Positions 26,340-36,820 are shown, counted from the first letter of the stretch. The stretch: 64,000 nucleotides of DNA from Saccharofermentans sp. (GCA_024683485.1 JAIKYD010000021.1:1-64000), one strand, 5' to 3'. Notes: a model not told the origin generated them from the sequence alone. Numbers and translations: made by a program.

Positions 26340-26525
26340 AGACCCGCATTATTTTATATGATTCGGCTTAAATATTCAACTTGATGTGTGTGTTCTTGCT
26401 AAAGCTGATTTATCCTGGCTATCATTGCTGAAAAAGCTGTTAGCAGTGTGCGAATGTTATAATGACAGATATCATAAACTGCTCCTTAGACGAAAGTGAT
26501 TTTGCCAAAACAGGAGGACAAATAT

Positions 26526-27770
26526 ATGAAGATTACTTTCGGAGATACCATGCATGTATATGGGGCACTTGGAGCCGGTGTCGATTATACTGTGCGTTTT
26601 ATTGTTAGATTAAATGACAGGATCGATAGTGAAGTATTGTCTTCAGCTGTAGACACTGCATCACTCAGATTTCCATATTTTATGGGGCGTCTGGTTCGTT
26701 CAGGAGAGGAACTTGAATATACCGATAATCATCTTCCGGTTAAGATTAATGAGGGCAATGCCAGGGTGGTGTTGAATTCGGCTTCAACTAACTATCATGT
26801 ATGGGCAGTATCTTATATGGATGATTATCTCTATCTGGATTTCTTTCACGGTATAACTGACGGAACCGGAATGTACAGGGTGTTGGCTGCGATACTCTAT
26901 CATTACTGCAGAAATATATATGGAATTGACAAAATCCCGGAATTGGAAACAGCGGATGTTGCGGCCGAGATGGAAGATCCTCAGGATAGGCTGCCTTCAG
27001 TTCAGATTCCGGAAGTCTCTTACACTCCCGCATTTACGCTGGAAACGGATGGAGGGTTAACGCGTTCTGCTCCCAAAATCTGGGATATCGGTATTCCGGA
27101 AGATGTTTTCATTGATTTTGTCCGTTCACATGATTCGACACCGGGAACTATGACAGAGATCCTTATGGGAAGGGCGATAGATTCTGTTTATCCGGATCAT
27201 TCAAAGCCTTTGATCAGTTCTTATGTTATTAATGCCAGACCTATGGTTGGTGCAGATAAGACAAATCATAACTGTCTTGGAATGTCTGTTTTCGATTATT
27301 CCGCAGCGATAGGTTCAATGCCGCTTACAAAGCAGGGAACTGTTTACCGCGGTAAGACATTTGTACAGAGCAGGGAAGAGGCTGTGGAGGCAGGTTTGTC
27401 AGCTAATGCTATGACTGTAAAGGCGGTATTGGCATCGAATCCTTCTCTTCAGGCAAGGAAAGAAGCATTTGCTTCTATGTTTAATGGCGGGGAAGGCTTC
27501 ATTACTTATCTAGTAAGTTATCCCGGAAAATGGAAATATCCTTCTATAGGTGCTTATATGAAGGAATTCAGGACACACCCGCCTTGCACATTCGGATTGA
27601 TGACAATACTTGGAGCCGCAGGCGGAAAAATAACGCTTTCAATACAACAAAGATTTAAGGAGAATACTGTTGTTGAGGCTTTCTTTTCGCAGCTTAAAGA
27701 ATTTAGCATTCCTTATTCTGTGATATCCTCAGGCGTAAGTGATGTTGCCGGTTTTGAGATGCCTGTATGA
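26526..27770 (+). CDS. Condensation-fold acyltransferase (alcohol acetyltransferase/PapA-like)
   Basis: A 414-residue protein with the HxxxDG active-site motif of the BAHD/condensation-domain superfamily: HGITDG, with His108 and Gly113. The N-terminal VRLNDRIDSEVLSSAVDTAS is the helix pairing typical of these folds. SYVINARPM and FGLMTILGAAGGKITLSIQ fit the second subdomain. It should transfer an acyl group from CoA or a carrier protein to an alcohol or amine; the substrates are unknown. There is no NRPS or PKS near it. ATG at 26526 has AGGAGGA upstream; the 10 codons before it are excluded. Confidence 0.75.
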   Translation: MKITFGDTMHVYGALGAGVDYTVRFIVRLNDRIDSEVLSSAVDTASLRFPYFMGRLVRSGEELEYTDNHLPVKINEGNARVVLNSASTNYHVWAVSYMDDYLYLDFFHGITDGTGMYRVLAAILYHYCRNIYGIDKIPELETADVAAEMEDPQDRLPSVQIPEVSYTPAFTLETDGGLTRSAPKIWDIGIPEDVFIDFVRSHDSTPGTMTEILMGRAIDSVYPDHSKPLISSYVINARPMVGADKTNHNCLGMSVFDYSAAIGSMPLTKQGTVYRGKTFVQSREEAVEAGLSANAMTVKAVLASNPSLQARKEAFASMFNGGEGFITYLVSYPGKWKYPSIGAYMKEFRTHPPCTFGLMTILGAAGGKITLSIQQRFKENTVVEAFFSQLKEFSIPYSVISSGVSDVAGFEMPV

Positions 27771-29174: not shown

Positions 29175-29265
29175 GGAGAAGTACCCAAGAGGCCGAAGGG
29201 GAGGCTTTGCTAAAGCTTTAGGCCGGGCAACTGGCGCGAGGGTTCGAATCCCTCCTTCTCCGCCA
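29175..29265 (+). tRNA. tRNA-Ser (anticodon GCT)
   Basis: The acceptor stem GGAGAAG/CTTCTCC, discriminator G and encoded CCA (29263-29265) are present. The anticodon loop TTGCTAA, between AGGCT and AGCTT, gives GCT, reading AGC/AGU. The long variable arm GGCCGGGCAACTGGC and the T-loop GTTCGAATC confirm tRNA-Ser. Confidence 0.96.
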
Positions 29266-29359: not shown

Positions 29360-29390
29360 TTGATAAAAAACATTGTTTCTATGGTAAAAT
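29360..29390 (+). promoter_or_regulatory. Probable promoter of the RiPP precursor gene
   Basis: TTGATA (29360-29365), a 19-bp spacer and TAAAAT (29385-29390) with a TGG extension before the -10, 43 bases before the precursor start. The long spacer is compensated by the extended -10. Confidence 0.45.
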
Positions 29391-29432
29391 ATTAAAAACA
29401 AATATCTTGATATAGAAAGGAACGTGGTTATT

Positions 29433-29690
29433 ATGGCAGAAATCGATAAGTCAAAACTTACTAATGAACAGTTTATTGCGGCTGCAAACTGCAAATCTGC
29501 AGATGAACTGATAGATCTTGCTAAACAGAATGGTGTTGATCTTAACAAAGAGGAAGCTGAAGCGTTCCTTGCAGAAGTCAGTTCAGTAGAACTGGATTTG
29601 GATACTCTTGAGAGCGTTAGCGGCGGAGTAGGGACGTGCTATATGGTAGATGGCTGCGCATTTAAGTGCGGTACACTCAAAGATTGTTAA
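29433..29690 (+). CDS. Nif11-type RiPP precursor peptide with four-Cys core
   Basis: An 85-residue peptide. Residues 1-62 form an acidic, helical Nif11-like leader (TNEQFIAAANCKSADELIDL, then NGVDLNKEEAEAFL and ELDLDTLESV). It ends in a double-glycine site, SVSGG (61-65). The predicted core, residues 66-85, is VGTCYMVDGCAFKCGTLKDC, with Cys at core positions 4, 10, 14 and 20. Nif11 leaders with GG sites are known for lanthipeptides, proteusins and radical-SAM-modified peptides; here the maturase genes downstream argue for the last. ATG at 29433 follows AGAAAGGA; GTG at 29424 is an alternative. The mature structure and function are unknown. Confidence 0.87.
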   Translation: MAEIDKSKLTNEQFIAAANCKSADELIDLAKQNGVDLNKEEAEAFLAEVSSVELDLDTLESVSGGVGTCYMVDGCAFKCGTLKDC

Positions 29691-29713
29691 TCGAATAATA
29701 AGTGTTTTTTTAG

Positions 29714-29739
29714 GGAGCATCTTTGTATGCTCCTTTTTT
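29714..29739 (+). terminator. Attenuator-like hairpin between precursor and maturase
   Basis: GGAGCAT (29714-29720) and ATGCTCC (29727-29733) form a perfect 7-bp stem with a 6-base loop, followed by six T. It lies 23 bases after the precursor stop and 12 bases before the maturase start. Partial termination here would give much more peptide than enzyme, as is usual in RiPP operons. Confidence 0.8.
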
Positions 29740-29751
29740 ATATGTGGATAA

Positions 29752-31353
29752 ATGAGTAGTGCTATGCATCTAAGTGCTTATGAGATAATTCTGCCGCTTA
29801 CTAACGGTGAAGGAAAAGAAATACAGGATCTGTCTTTGCTGGTTAACGGATTATATGGTTCTGTTGATGTGGTGGCACATCAAGAAGTGGAACTGCTTTT
29901 TTCCGGTGATTTTGATGCTGTCCCGAAAAGTCTTTTAGCACGACTTATTTCCCGCGGTCATCTGACGGAAAAGACTCAGGATGAGGAGCGTAAGGATCTT
30001 CAACTACTTGGCAGGATATACCGTTTGCTGATCAGCAGGATAGAGACGGCAATCTGTATATTGCCTACTTATGACTGCAATTTCCGTTGTCCCTATTGTT
30101 TTGAGCGTCACAGGTTAAAGAATGGTAAAGAATGGCTTTGCGGAACAATTTCAACTGAAATGATTGATGCGGTCTTCAATGCTATTCAGAATGAGAGGGA
30201 TAAGGGTCATCTGGTAATTCATTGTACTCTTTACGGAGGTGAACCTTTGCTTAAAGAGAATATCCAGGTTGTCCGTTATATTGGAGACAAGTGCAGGGAT
30301 ATGGGTCTGAAGATGAATGCGATAACAAATGGTTATGACCTGGATGAATATATCGATCTTTTGGACCAATATCCTTTTCAACAGCTTCAGATTACTGTAG
30401 ATGGTGTAAGTGATATAAACAACGCTCTTCGTGTGCACCGTGACGGCTGCGGCAGTTATGATAAGATCATGAGCAATATTGAACTGGCACTTGAGCACGG
30501 TATAGATGTTCATATGCGTGTTAATGTCGGACAAAATAATATTCATGGTATGAAAGATCTCGTAGAAGATCTTCGGAATCGCGGATTTGTTGATAAGGAA
30601 GAACAAAGAGAAAACTCAGTAAATGAAGGGAAATCCTCTGAACGCGGAAAGTTCTCATATTATTTTAAAGCTGTTGAATATGATGAACCTGAGAACAGTG
30701 TGACAGAACAGGAAATAATGCAGGAACTTCTGGATATGGGTTTTTCAGCGGAAGAAGCCATTGCCAGGGAAAGCCAGTACTTTTTGCCTTCTGACGTCTT
30801 CCGCAGCCAGATCAGCAAAAAAGTCCTTCCTCCGATAATGACAGCTTTCTGCGGTTCGGAAATGAATTCTGTCATTGTTGATCCGTACGGAAAATTATTT
30901 CCGTGCTGGGACCAGGTTGCCAAGGAGGATGCTTCAATCGGATTTTTGGATAAGGAATCCGGCAGGTTTATTTGGGATTTTGAGAAGGCGCGTTGGCTTA
31001 CACGCACCTCAGATCTGATACAAAAATGTGCAGACTGTCCATATGCTTTTATCTGCAGAGGAGGCTGCGCATCGCGTGCAATGGCAAAGAACGGCAGTTT
31101 TTTCAGGGAATACTGCGGAGAGATAAAAGAAATCTTCTCGTTTATCGCTCCACGTCTTGCCGGTGAGGTTTATGAACGTACCGGTGATAAAGAACTCTCG
31201 CTATCCTGGTTTGAACCTTTATCACTACTCAGTCAGGAAGACCGTAATATTATTATGAATACAGGAAGTCAGAAGGAGATACTGGGAATCCTGCAAAAAT
31301 ATGGTATCCCGGATATGATCAAATCCTGCGGGAATATTGAGAGTGAATGCTGA
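29752..31353 (+). CDS. Radical SAM/SPASM peptide maturase
   Basis: A 533-residue enzyme. Residues 1-100 form an N-terminal region where a leader-binding (RRE-like) domain would be expected, but I cannot confirm one. The radical SAM core has the cluster motif CNFRCPYC (Cys109, 113, 116), with Phe in place of the common Tyr/Thr, and the SAM-binding YGGEP (161-165). The SPASM domain provides Cys367, 385, 426, 429, 435, 439 and 455 for auxiliary [4Fe-4S] clusters; DPYGKLFPCWD and CADCPYAFICRGGC are typical. Related enzymes form thioether (sactionine or ranthionine) or C-C crosslinks in peptides. It follows the Nif11 precursor, its presumed substrate. The ATG at 29752 lacks a clear ribosome binding site; 29764 is an alternative. 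Confidence 0.92.
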   Translation: MSSAMHLSAYEIILPLTNGEGKEIQDLSLLVNGLYGSVDVVAHQEVELLFSGDFDAVPKSLLARLISRGHLTEKTQDEERKDLQLLGRIYRLLISRIETAICILPTYDCNFRCPYCFERHRLKNGKEWLCGTISTEMIDAVFNAIQNERDKGHLVIHCTLYGGEPLLKENIQVVRYIGDKCRDMGLKMNAITNGYDLDEYIDLLDQYPFQQLQITVDGVSDINNALRVHRDGCGSYDKIMSNIELALEHGIDVHMRVNVGQNNIHGMKDLVEDLRNRGFVDKEEQRENSVNEGKSSERGKFSYYFKAVEYDEPENSVTEQEIMQELLDMGFSAEEAIARESQYFLPSDVFRSQISKKVLPPIMTAFCGSEMNSVIVDPYGKLFPCWDQVAKEDASIGFLDKESGRFIWDFEKARWLTRTSDLIQKCADCPYAFICRGGCASRAMAKNGSFFREYCGEIKEIFSFIAPRLAGEVYERTGDKELSLSWFEPLSLLSQEDRNIIMNTGSQKEILGILQKYGIPDMIKSCGNIESEC

Positions 31354-33128
31354 TGATTGAATATTCCGGCAGACTCCCTGCACATTATTTTATTTCTCAT
31401 CTTCGAAGGCATCCTATGCCGGAATTGCTCGATGAGGATTTCTATAAAGTATTAGACAACATAGAATTACAGTATGCAGAACTCTTATCTTTCTGTTCAG
31501 GTCTGGAGATAAGGCTGGGAAATCCGGAACGTTATGCTGATTATATACTCTGTACGGAAGATCCTTCATATTATCAAGGTGCGGTAAAGTGGCTCGAGAT
31601 GGATTATGAAGCCTGTAAAAGAGTAGGAGAGATCGTTCCGTGCGTCTTTCTGAATACCTGGGATGCTGCTGATCAGGTTCAGAATGCTGATAATACTGAT
31701 TATTGGAATGATTTGCTGAATGTTTTCTGCGGAGAAGAACTGTCGGAATTGTTAAGAAAGCCTTTCTTTTCATTGCTTGCCAATCTTCCTAAAGGTGCGA
31801 AAATAAAGCAGATAGGTTCTATGGCACGTCCTGGAGAGTGTGAAAAACTCCGTGTTGTTATACTTTTCAATTCCTGGAATCAGATAGCTTCTTTTCTTGT
31901 AAGAGCGGGATGGAATGGTAATGTTTCTTTACTTGAAAAGGCGATCTTTCCATGGACTGATGCTGAAAGAATAGCTCTGAATGTTGATCTCAGTTCAGAA
32001 GGAATATGCGAAAAGACCGGTTTTGAGATATACCATGCTGTGAGACATCCTGTTTTGGCGGACAGAATGATCTCAAGACTTGAAAAGGCAGGACTTTGCC
32101 TTCCGGAAAAGGCGGCAGCACTCAGGCGCTGGATCAGGATATTTCCTGATTCAGACCCATTTATTCAGACACATATTACATACTATAAACTGAATTATTC
32201 TGATGGGCGGATTACAGATGTCAAGGCATATCTTGAGCAGTCTCCTTGGCCTAAACACCGTTTTTTCGATGCTTATGACAAACCAATTTATGTTGAGATG
32301 ACAGCCTGGAATACCGGAGAGGAACAGGCTCGGGGCAGGATAACAGAATGGCTTGAAATGCTTTCATTGGCAAATGTCCGAAGGATACATCTGTATGGCT
32401 CGGAAGAAGGTACTGAGGCTGCTAACTTGATCAGACACGCCAAGGGATTGAAAATGAATGTATGTGTTTTCCTGGAGAGAACTGTTGAACCTGAACGTAT
32501 TTCTGAATTGGTAAACGCAGGTGCGGATGGTTTTGTAATAGTAATGTATAAGACTTCAGAAATGCTCAGTGTCATTCATTATTTGTGTTCATCCAATGTG
32601 TCTGATGTGAGTGTTAAGTGTATCGTATCTTCTGCAAACGTTGAAAGCATGATAAGTGTCTTTGAAGAACTTAGAAATCAGAATATAAATGAATTGATCA
32701 TATCCGGATTTTGTGGTGACGCTGATAGTGTGCCTTCACAGGCTGAAATGGAGAATTTGGCTGTATGGATCGATTCAAATAAGGATATGAATGTTACTGT
32801 TGATTCATGCTTTTCGCCACTCCGTGCCATAATGGGAGGAAATGTTATACGTAAAAACAGCAACTATGGTGTTGGTATGGGCTGTACAGCCGGAAGAGAT
32901 CATTTCTATGTGGATGAGTCAGGATACCCTCATCCTTGCCGGTTCCTTCCTGAAGATAAAACCATAGCATCGTTGGATGAATACTGGCATAATTCACAAT
33001 CACTGAATTCATTCAGGGGGAATGGATTCAACAATAATCCTGCGTGTGCTGACTGTAATTACAGACAACGTTGTTTTCCGTGCCCGGTTGCCGATCATGC
33101 TGCCTGCAGCGTCAGAAAGATCAACTGA
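31353..33128 (+). CDS. Large partner protein with degenerate radical-SAM barrel and SPASM tail
   Basis: A 591-residue protein whose start (TGATG) overlaps the maturase stop by one base; ATG at 31347 is an alternative. Residues 1-300 form a domain I do not recognise (segments KWLEMDYEAC, RIALNVDLSSEG and YYKLNYSDGRITDVKAYLEQ). Residues 311-480 read like a radical SAM TIM barrel (PIYVEMTAWN, RRIHLYGSEEG, then alternating strands and helices), but where CxxxCxxC should stand there is WNTGEEQA, so no SAM cluster can form. The tail has a full SPASM-like set: Cys511, 529, 565, 568, 574, 577 and 585 (DESGYPHPCRF, CADCNYRQRCFPC). It is probably a substrate-handling or cluster-carrying partner of the maturase. 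The 3' end overlaps the convergent PfkB gene by 8 bases. Confidence 0.8.
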   Translation: MIEYSGRLPAHYFISHLRRHPMPELLDEDFYKVLDNIELQYAELLSFCSGLEIRLGNPERYADYILCTEDPSYYQGAVKWLEMDYEACKRVGEIVPCVFLNTWDAADQVQNADNTDYWNDLLNVFCGEELSELLRKPFFSLLANLPKGAKIKQIGSMARPGECEKLRVVILFNSWNQIASFLVRAGWNGNVSLLEKAIFPWTDAERIALNVDLSSEGICEKTGFEIYHAVRHPVLADRMISRLEKAGLCLPEKAAALRRWIRIFPDSDPFIQTHITYYKLNYSDGRITDVKAYLEQSPWPKHRFFDAYDKPIYVEMTAWNTGEEQARGRITEWLEMLSLANVRRIHLYGSEEGTEAANLIRHAKGLKMNVCVFLERTVEPERISELVNAGADGFVIVMYKTSEMLSVIHYLCSSNVSDVSVKCIVSSANVESMISVFEELRNQNINELIISGFCGDADSVPSQAEMENLAVWIDSNKDMNVTVDSCFSPLRAIMGGNVIRKNSNYGVGMGCTAGRDHFYVDESGYPHPCRFLPEDKTIASLDEYWHNSQSLNSFRGNGFNNNPACADCNYRQRCFPCPVADHAACSVRKIN

Positions 33129-34412: not shown

Positions 34413-35147
34413 ATGATTGAAGCAAAATCCTTGACCATGATCTACGGAAACGGTCATAAGGCGACAGATGATATCTCGTTTAATATCAAGGCAGGTGAGA
34501 TCGTAGGCTTTGCCGGTCCCAATGGTGCAGGGAAGACCACAGTCATCAAGATGCTTACTGGTATTCTTAAGCCAACTTCCGGAACGGCAGTTATTAATGG
34601 GTTTGATATAGATAAAGAACCGATAAAAGCCAAGAAGTCTTTTGCGTATATTGCCGATAATCCTGATGTTCTGATCCAGCTGACTGGTCTTGAATTCCTG
34701 AATTTCATTGCGGATATGTATGAGATATCAGAGAGTATCAGGAAAGATAAGATCGGCAAATTGTCGGAACGTTTTGGGATGAGTGATGTCCTGAATACAC
34801 AGATGCGCGAATACTCACACGGCATGAGACAGAAACTTATGGTCATTTCCGCACTTATACATGACCCGCCTGCGTGGATCCTGGATGAGCCTATGACCGG
34901 ACTGGATCCTTCTGCTGCTTATGAGCTTAAGCAGATGATGCGTGAGCATGCGGAAGCAGGAAATGCTGTTCTTTTCTCAACTCATGTGCTTGAAGTCGCT
35001 GAGCAGTTATGTAACAGGATACTGATAATCAACAACGGAAAGATAATAAGGGAAGGAACGCTTGATTATCTGAGACTTGACAATCCCGGTATGTCACTAG
35101 AAGAGATCTTTGTTAAACTGACCGGGAAACATGATACAGGTATTTGA
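34413..35147 (+). CDS. ABC transporter ATP-binding protein
   Basis: A 244-residue ABC ATPase with Walker A GPNGAGKT (35-42), signature YSHGMRQKL, Walker B WILDEPMTGLDP and the H-loop STHVLEVAEQL. This layout is that of ABC-2 type exporters. GGGAGGTGAG precedes the ATG. The permease gene begins 2 bases after its stop, so the pair forms a complete half-transporter set. Whether it exports the RiPP made 1.3 kb away is open: it lacks a C39 peptidase domain and is not in the same operon. Confidence 0.92.
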   Translation: MIEAKSLTMIYGNGHKATDDISFNIKAGEIVGFAGPNGAGKTTVIKMLTGILKPTSGTAVINGFDIDKEPIKAKKSFAYIADNPDVLIQLTGLEFLNFIADMYEISESIRKDKIGKLSERFGMSDVLNTQMREYSHGMRQKLMVISALIHDPPAWILDEPMTGLDPSAAYELKQMMREHAEAGNAVLFSTHVLEVAEQLCNRILIINNGKIIREGTLDYLRLDNPGMSLEEIFVKLTGKHDTGI

Positions 35148-35149
35148 TC

Positions 35150-36820
35150 ATGAACAAGACCAGGAGCTTATATAAAGCTTTCAGCTCGAATCTTGAGATG
35201 CCCAAACCGGACGGAGAGAAGAAGGTCCGGATATATAACAGGTTCGGTATGATCGCTTTTATCGGAATAATGCTTCCGGTGTCTTTTGTTGTTGGTTATA
35301 TCACTTATGTTCTTACGGATCTGTTATATCTTTTCGACGGTAATTCTTATGGACTTCTTTCAGAACTTCATCTGATATCCGCATTTGCAATGATCTTCGG
35401 GATGCCTCTGATGTTCAGCGTGCTGTTCTTCTCTTCGGATCTTCAGTTCCTTGCTGCGCTGCCGGTCTCGTCCATAACTCTTTATTCGGCAAGATTCTGG
35501 CATACATTCAAGGCTGAGAACGTGATGACATCCAATGTTCTGGTAGCTGTATATATTGGTTATTTTGTATCAGTTGCGAAAAACAGCAGTCTTGGCAATG
35601 CTCTTCATCCAATATCGCTTCTGGCTGCGGTTGCCGGATTTTTCGGTTCTCTTTTGCTCCCTTTGATATATTGCTCGATGATAGCTTTATTGTTGATGCT
35701 TGTTTTAAGACGTTTCAACCGTACCGATATATATTTTTATTCATCACTCGTTCTGTTTGCCGCCTTTGCTCTGTTGTTTATTCTCTCTTTCGGCAATTAC
35801 GGCAGTATAAGCATGGTGAATTATCTTGATTCTCTGGTTATTGGCAATAATACTTTTACTTCGATCTGTAACGTCATGTTTCCGGTGAATTATCTGACAA
35901 CGTTATCGATAAGGACTCACAGGGTGCTTCCGCTTATAGGAGCTGTTTTGATTCTTGTTTCCATGTACCTGTTATCAGTTCTTATATCTCATCAGACATA
36001 TCGAAAAGGGCTTTTCGCCGCTTTCATTGTCAGCAACAAACGTTCCATGCGTGGATCGCGTTCCGAGTATGGAAGCCGCAATATCTTTCAGGCACTTGTT
36101 GTCAAAGAAGTTAAGGTTCTTATGAGAACGATGACTTACAGGATGAATTGTGTTTATGCGAATCTCTTATGGCCTGTGGCTGCTGTTATATTTGTTCTCG
36201 AAGCCCCCAAATTTGAATTCTTCAAGATATTCTTTTATAAACTGCAAACGGGTGACAGATCAAGTCATACCGTTATGTTTGCGGTGATCATTGCAATATC
36301 TTTTATTGCTTCAGGTCTCAATTCCATTGCTTCAACGTCTTTCACCCGTGAAGGTGTCCACCTGGATATGATCAAGTATCTTCCGGCAGATCTTGATAAA
36401 CAGATCAAGGCTAAAGTGTTCACAGCGGTTCTTTTTACTTTTATCCCGGTGCTTCCGGCCGTAATCCTTGTGTCTGCCTGCTCCGGAATAGCATATATGC
36501 TGCCGTTATATGTTCCGGTGTCTTTAATCTGTATTCTGACAGCAACAATGATAGGAACAGTTATGGATTCAATATCTCCGTACACTGTATGGTCTGACGA
36601 GCTTTCTGCACTTCGTGGAAATCTGAACTGTTTCTTCAATCTTGCAGCTGAAATGGCTGTTGCTTTGATAACCGGTGTAATCGCGTACGGAATTTTCTTA
36701 TTGTCTGGTAGTGCAGTGATAACTGTTGTTTCAGTTACGTCAGTTTTGCTGGCGGTTTGCGTTGCATGTATCTTTATAGGAATGCCGTTTGTAAAGAAAA
36801 ATATCGAATCGCTGACTTAG
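35150..36820 (+). CDS. ABC-2-like membrane permease subunit
   Basis: A 556-residue integral membrane protein with about 12-14 hydrophobic segments, no signal peptide and a charged loop near residue 300 (KRSMRGSRSEYGSRN). It resembles the large single-chain permeases that pair with exporter-type ATPases in Firmicutes. ATG at 35150 overlaps the region of the ATPase stop (gap of 2 bases), so translation is coupled; the TTG at 35144 is less likely. The substrate is unknown. Confidence 0.83.
   Translation: MNKTRSLYKAFSSNLEMPKPDGEKKVRIYNRFGMIAFIGIMLPVSFVVGYITYVLTDLLYLFDGNSYGLLSELHLISAFAMIFGMPLMFSVLFFSSDLQFLAALPVSSITLYSARFWHTFKAENVMTSNVLVAVYIGYFVSVAKNSSLGNALHPISLLAAVAGFFGSLLLPLIYCSMIALLLMLVLRRFNRTDIYFYSSLVLFAAFALLFILSFGNYGSISMVNYLDSLVIGNNTFTSICNVMFPVNYLTTLSIRTHRVLPLIGAVLILVSMYLLSVLISHQTYRKGLFAAFIVSNKRSMRGSRSEYGSRNIFQALVVKEVKVLMRTMTYRMNCVYANLLWPVAAVIFVLEAPKFEFFKIFFYKLQTGDRSSHTVMFAVIIAISFIASGLNSIASTSFTREGVHLDMIKYLPADLDKQIKAKVFTAVLFTFIPVLPAVILVSACSGIAYMLPLYVPVSLICILTATMIGTVMDSISPYTVWSDELSALRGNLNCFFNLAAEMAVALITGVIAYGIFLLSGSAVITVVSVTSVLLAVCVACIFIGMPFVKKNIESLT

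Follow-up and report, generated by a model that had tools for sequence, protein, structure and literature searches.

A three-gene peptide locus in Saccharofermentans

A 64,000-nucleotide stretch from a draft genome of Saccharofermentans sp. that is 82% complete (GCA_024683485.1 JAIKYD010000021.1:1-64000; hereafter the window) carries a compact locus predicted to make a ribosomally produced, post-translationally modified peptide (RiPP). Three intact reading frames on the plus strand encode an 85-residue precursor, a radical S-adenosylmethionine (SAM) enzyme with a SPASM domain, and a large SPASM protein, here called P3, whose start codon region overlaps the stop of the enzyme gene (ATGCTGATG; Table 1). 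Judged from its sequence, P3 is a pseudo-radical-SAM protein because the CX3CX2C motif is absent throughout its clade while the SPASM cysteines are kept. An initial annotation of the window had already recognized a RiPP locus with a radical SAM/SPASM maturase and a coupled large SPASM protein, and the present analysis supports that assignment.

The precursor reads MAEIDKSKLTNEQFIAAANCKSADELIDLAKQNGVDLNKEEAEAFLAEVSSVELDLDTLESVSGG followed by the core VGTCYMVDGCAFKCGTLKDC. As first annotated, it has a Gly-Gly site, with VSGG closing the leader at residues 62-65, and a Cys-rich core of 20 residues with four Cys comes next. A Gly-Gly site, a core unlike the leader, and an adjoining maturase gene (62 bases downstream) give it the context of a Nif11-type precursor. 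Its designation as Nif11-type is more qualified: the window peptide scores 16.3 bits against the Nif11-like leader model TIGR03798, under the curated cut-off of 32.3, and the assignment is made through relatives, some of which pass (L093, 34.9; L088, 34.8; L096, 32.4; L121, 36.6 bits). Relatives in the Selenomonadaceae share 51% identity with the precursor across its full length; no match to it was found in plasmid and phage records.

The enzyme contains a Radical_SAM domain (Pfam, 69.1 bits) with the CX3CX2C motif, CNFRCPYC (C109, C113, C116), and a SPASM domain, also in Pfam, with seven Cys (C367, C385, C426, C429, C435, C439, C455). The motif and the seven SPASM Cys, both named in the initial annotation, are invariant across five aligned sequences. 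The best-scoring families are CefB (NF038107; 140.7 bits) and TIGR04463 (128.9 bits), below their cut-offs of 600 and 525. The PapB family NF047865 matches over its whole length at 109.3 bits (cut-off 340), and TIGR04064, the nif11-like peptide radical SAM maturase, reaches 75.2 bits (cut-off 518.7). The closest enzyme among 148 relatives is 35% identical, and a search across 398 genomes spread over the window's phylum yielded no second close radical SAM protein.

Between the precursor and enzyme genes lies a hairpin of nine pairs followed by a T run, the structure previously annotated as an attenuator. The hairpin is present, and its position is what suggests attenuation; such hairpins occur at chance level here (three found vs 3.1 expected in shuffles; fold z -0.9).

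Table 1. Coordinates of the features at the locus, counted from the first nucleotide of the window
Feature	Position	Strand	Basis or remark
tRNA-Ser(gct)	29175-29265		directly upstream of the three plus-strand genes of the locus
Precursor gene	29433..29690, stop included	+	85-residue open reading frame; Selenomonadaceae relatives; purifying selection on core
Leader, residues 1-65, Nif11-like, SGG end	29433..29627	+	weak TIGR03798 match at residues 17-65, below cut-off; homologous leaders pass
Core VGTCYMVDGCAFKCGTLKDC	29628..29687	+	CYMVDGCAFKCGTLKDC identical in G281, G276, G279, G278
Terminator-like hairpin, possible attenuator	29712..29735	+	between precursor and enzyme; position suggestive only
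Active radical SAM/SPASM maturase, 533 residues	29752..31353 (start may be 29764)	+	Pfam Radical_SAM and SPASM
P3, predicted pseudo-radical-SAM/SPASM partner, 593 residues	31347..33128 (start may be 31353)	+	Pfam SPASM only
P3 N-terminal domain, ~residues 1-300, no known family	31347..32246	+	

P3 and its active sister clade

In Pfam, P3 matches SPASM alone (PF13186; 24.1 bits, cut-off 21.5). We aligned 30 sequences, comprising P3, 23 clade mates, and six proteins of a sister clade. CX3CX2C is absent from all 24 full-length members of the P3 clade, at a common gap of ~14 residues, and the clade retains C488, C513, C531, C567, C570, C576, C579 and C587; of these, the last seven give P3 the full seven-Cys SPASM pattern. 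The sister clade (support 100/100), which includes a member from the window's own genus (G055) together with G210, G213, G214, G283 and G483, retains CPLxCPQC. As far as its sequences tell, the P3 lineage is thus related to active maturases of Nif11 peptides but no longer has a SAM site. Loss of the motif, rather than its gain, is suggested by the role that it plays across the superfamily; the tree itself is rooted at the midpoint only. Since the SAM-binding Cys motif has disappeared throughout the clade, P3 is probably a non-catalytic partner and not a second maturase. The two-protein set proposed in the initial annotation therefore holds as a conserved set, with the qualification, missed at the time, that its second protein lacks CX3CX2C.

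The genes of the sister clade also adjoin Nif11-leader precursors. A final W closes 29 of the 30 distinct cores near this type, and in 20 the last two residues are RW. Proteins that combine CPLxCPQC with a P3-like N-terminal domain are encoded at L018:8149-10089, L121:7494-9365, L122:5940-7853, L123:6952-8835, L124:6609-8480 and L125:6434-8443. The precursor arrays at these loci have W-terminated cores, mostly with RRW or RW as the last residues, and almost no Cys.

Neither Pfam nor NCBIfam has a model that matches residues 1-300 of P3. A similar region forms part of the active sister radical SAM proteins, stands as a separate gene adjoining a radical SAM gene in G599 (L126), and fronts a 2-oxoglutarate (2OG)-Fe(II) oxygenase on a Pseudanabaena plasmid (28% identity over ~240 residues), where the fusion gene neighbors LanM and a Nif11 precursor. 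Because a Nif11 leader is what these settings share, we infer that the N-terminal domain recognizes it, and the domain may represent a leader-recognition module distinct from the RiPP recognition element (RRE) already described. A broader joint reading, which we offer tentatively and with more doubt than belief, is that the pseudo-radical-SAM protein, throughout its clade, serves a heteromeric radical SAM maturase as an indispensable leader-binding subunit, and that its N-terminal domain is a general module for recognizing Nif11 leaders, found also in maturases of the active radical SAM and 2OG-Fe(II) oxygenase types. A fold search of P3 against the PDB returned barrel and radical SAM matches only, to the middle part of the protein. 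The plasmid fusion is the only plasmid match for P3, and its N-terminus has no match among phage records.

Co-occurrence of the enzyme and P3

In the Selenomonadaceae, the family of a Schwartzia metagenome-assembled genome (G148) that bears a near-identical core, the radical SAM gene occurs in 28 of 189 genomes and P3-clade genes, some of them partial, in 24. The latter count leaves out G210, G213 and G214, which carry the active sister type instead. Both genes are found together in 21 genomes vs 3.6 expected (p 5e-19, uncorrected for relatedness). At ten checked loci, they are same-strand neighbors that range from overlapping to ~1 kb apart, with correlated pairwise divergence (r 0.94, 11 pairs, uncorrected for the species tree). 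Nif11-leader precursor arrays surround the pair, with 76 distinct and highly variable cores, 72 of which contain at least one Cys.

Many of these loci also encode NHLM export proteins, a C39 peptidase among them. The NHLM export system (TIGR03794/03796/03797), a C39 peptidase/ATP-binding cassette (ABC) exporter with an HlyD adaptor, is present in relatives such as L094. In the window genome, an exporter with a C39 domain was not found: none of 46 ABC matches spans the C39 segment (residues 1-182) of the query.

A frozen core among variable neighbors

A precursor with the window core is present in five Selenomonadaceae genomes: the four named in Table 1 share CYMVDGCAFKCGTLKDC without change, and in G148 a single Ala is replaced by Ser. 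Across the 17 core codons, the window differs from the four by 10-11 synonymous and 0 non-synonymous changes, whereas the 40 codons before the core differ by 12-15 synonymous and 22-24 non-synonymous changes. About half of the leader residues differ. The core is under strong purifying selection. Because these distant genomes use different codons for the same core, the locus lies far beyond chance, and a core unchanged in distant bacteria suggests that the peptide itself is important to its host cell. Conservation of the core in relatives that keep the maturase was one of the points on which the initial annotation had staked its RiPP assignment, and it is borne out in all four genomes.

Neighboring precursors show the opposite pattern, with leaders alike and cores variable. 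A core frozen in distant hosts amid such variable neighbors points to a specific target for this peptide. The core-bearing gene immediately follows the radical SAM gene in the Selenomonadaceae genomes and precedes it in the window. At L087:7777-8058 (G283), the core-bearing precursor continues as CYMVEAALSNAAR beyond CYMV, apparently because of a frameshift within the core. In G281, a gene for a B12-type RiPP radical SAM C-methyltransferase (L085:5327-7249; TIGR03975, 460.6 bits) adjoins the precursor with the window core.

Proposed mechanism and alternatives

We propose that the locus yields one RiPP. A two-protein maturase would recognize the leader of the 85-residue precursor, and the active enzyme would cross-link core Cys thiols to nearby carbons by means of its radical SAM cluster and SPASM auxiliary clusters. 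The cross-links would most likely be thioethers, and Asp73 and Asp84 are the candidate acceptors. P3 would cleave no SAM and would instead bind the leader and/or scaffold the complex; removal of the leader at Gly-Gly would come last. Taken as a whole, an active cross-linking enzyme with P3 as its leader-binding and/or scaffolding partner is the explanation that we favor, with moderate confidence.

The nature of the cross-link is less certain. In 70 dereplicated related cores, Asp/Glu occurs at +3 from Cys 37 times vs 19.8 in shuffles, a count reached by none of 1000 shuffles, although 35 combinations were examined and the related cores are not independent. PapB joins Cys to Asp in CX3D motifs and tolerates n = 0-6 (PMC9413430), and the window core contains one CX3D (C69-D73) and one CX4D (C79-D84), with Cys spacings of +6, +4 and +6. 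For these reasons, a thioether from Cys to Asp is our leading guess, and, taken alone, it falls just short of an even chance.

Several findings weigh against the proposal or parts of it. The enriched +3 spacing differs from the CX3D and CX4D of the window core. The enzyme falls below all equivalog cut-offs shown, and its nearest families have other or untested products. G148, a draft genome whose core is one residue from that of the window, has no detectable P3, and five other genomes with the radical SAM gene have no P3 match; P3 may therefore not be obligatory. Finally, structure prediction for P3 gave a pLDDT of 45 alone and 52 with one relative, leaving the N-terminal domain unusable, and no leader site is visible in a model too poor to show one.

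Alternatively, the active enzyme may perform other radical chemistry (alpha-carbon thioethers, C-C links, or epimerization), with the Cys forming disulfides or binding metal and P3 still serving as partner. The enzyme matches many SPASM maturase families about equally weakly, and their products differ; likewise, Cys is enriched at +4 and +6 from Cys in the 70 related cores, a regular spacing that also fits disulfides or metal binding. The enrichment of Asp/Glu at a fixed distance from Cys and the full-length match of the PapB model (109 bits, though far under cut-off) speak against this option, which we regard as unlikely but the strongest of the competitors.

Two further possibilities concern P3 and are both improbable, to a similar degree. 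First, P3 could be an electron-transfer partner that works through its kept SPASM clusters, with leader binding not its main task. Its SPASM Cys are invariant despite the lost SAM site, and electron return in PapB is intermolecular, via the second auxiliary cluster (PMC10470005). Flavodoxin or free flavin serves PapB, however, and no special partner is needed; nor does electron transfer account for the large N-terminal domain, seen repeatedly in Nif11 clusters together with unrelated catalytic domains. Second, P3 could perform a separate, SAM-free step on this or another peptide. In some Selenomonadaceae genomes P3 is distant from the radical SAM gene or multicopy, and five genomes have P3 matches without the radical SAM gene; set against this are the strong co-occurrence of the two genes and the deletion of the catalytic motif of the sister clade, with nothing recognizable in its place in P3. 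A decaying remnant, with the P3 motif lost by decay and no peptide made, would accommodate the restriction of close copies to this genome among the 148 relatives and the missing C39 exporter, but it is highly implausible given three intact frames, strong purifying selection on the core, and a clade-wide absence of the motif with the SPASM Cys retained.

Comparison with known systems

The locus, as we read it with an active cross-linking enzyme and P3 as its partner, most resembles systems in which two radical SAM/SPASM-type proteins serve one modification. The thuricin CD sactisynthases TrnC and TrnD associate in a tight complex; TrnD is modeled mainly on the leader, and a TrnD with a disrupted radical SAM cluster still supports full modification with slightly reduced activity, making that cluster dispensable (PMC12093266). 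Unlike the P3 clade, TrnD retains CX3CX2C and cleaves SAM; the window system also differs in its leader, in its N-terminal domain, and in having one precursor. Similarly, Bacteroidales clusters (IPR026418) combine an active SPASM maturase, a pseudo-radical-SAM protein, and a precursor with a Gly-Gly leader. The pseudo-radical-SAM proteins of these Bacteroidales are thought to work with the radical SAM enzyme, and no function has been experimentally assigned to such proteins in RiPP clusters (PMC10352776). In contrast, the window leader is Nif11-like, the host is a Bacillota-type bacterium, and P3 has its own active sister clade. P3 itself has no IPR026418 match at E values up to 1, in a search that did not include the exact model on its own, and the family is not among the 25 families listed for 22 P3 relatives.

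PapB, the ranthipeptide maturase, shares with the window enzyme a match over the whole model and with the window core a Cys-Xn-Asp arrangement; its substrate PapA has six CX3D motifs rather than one CX3D and one CX4D, and PapB needs no partner. CefB (NF038107) and TIGR04463, the best-scoring families, mature Cys-rich peptides, but the window core does not have Cys at every fifth position. The Nif11-derived peptides (N11P) have the same type of leader with Gly-Gly, and the Selenomonadaceae relatives resemble them further, having NHLM export genes and sets of paralogous precursors whose cores vary. The window itself carries a single precursor and lacks an NHLM-type exporter. The text of Haft 2010 on N11P (PMC2887384) describes lanthionine or azole machinery, with no mention of radical SAM. 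The window system fits no curated family, though in the proposed reading it works like the TrnC/TrnD and Bacteroidales radical SAM/pseudo-radical-SAM pairs. Compact, with three genes and an active sister clade as a reference, it opens the role of a pseudo-radical-SAM protein to direct testing.

Surroundings and associated genes

A sugar-kinase gene on the opposite strand bounds the locus after P3. ABC genes at 34413-36820 were considered as an exporter and rejected: they have no C39 domain, the ATPase is DrrA-like, and the opposite-strand kinase gene lies between. No att-like repeat was seen that would mark integration at tRNA-Ser, and GC content is 0.41 vs 0.44 in the window. An empty integration site could not be demonstrated, the kinase gene on the far side having no conserved neighborhood in the genus. 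In the tree, both window proteins sit on long branches of uncertain placement, which give no direction to any horizontal transfer. Near tRNA-Ser, a gene at 26514-27770 encodes a 418-residue protein that matches nothing in NCBIfam and, above cut-off, nothing in Pfam.

DUF7005 proteins with HExxH accompany several related loci (L018:6929-7825, L143:2647-3504, L099:1159-1962, L100:3075-3950). The copy in the window genome (G000:C94:6271-6981) lies away from the locus, in a region of methionine/cysteine metabolism; speculatively, it might remove the leader. One of these stretches, L143:1-3504 (IMGVR_UViG_3300021400_005598), is classed as viral and holds a Nif11 precursor, a P3 homologue and, at the contig edge, the DUF7005 gene; the radical SAM gene is not present in that stretch. 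Finally, some of the Selenomonadaceae precursor arrays include a Nif11 leader fused to a Hint domain (Pfam E 1.3e-7; L085:9971-10675, L088:6603-7307, L090:5616-6296, L091:630-1334), as if a self-cleaving domain had replaced the core.

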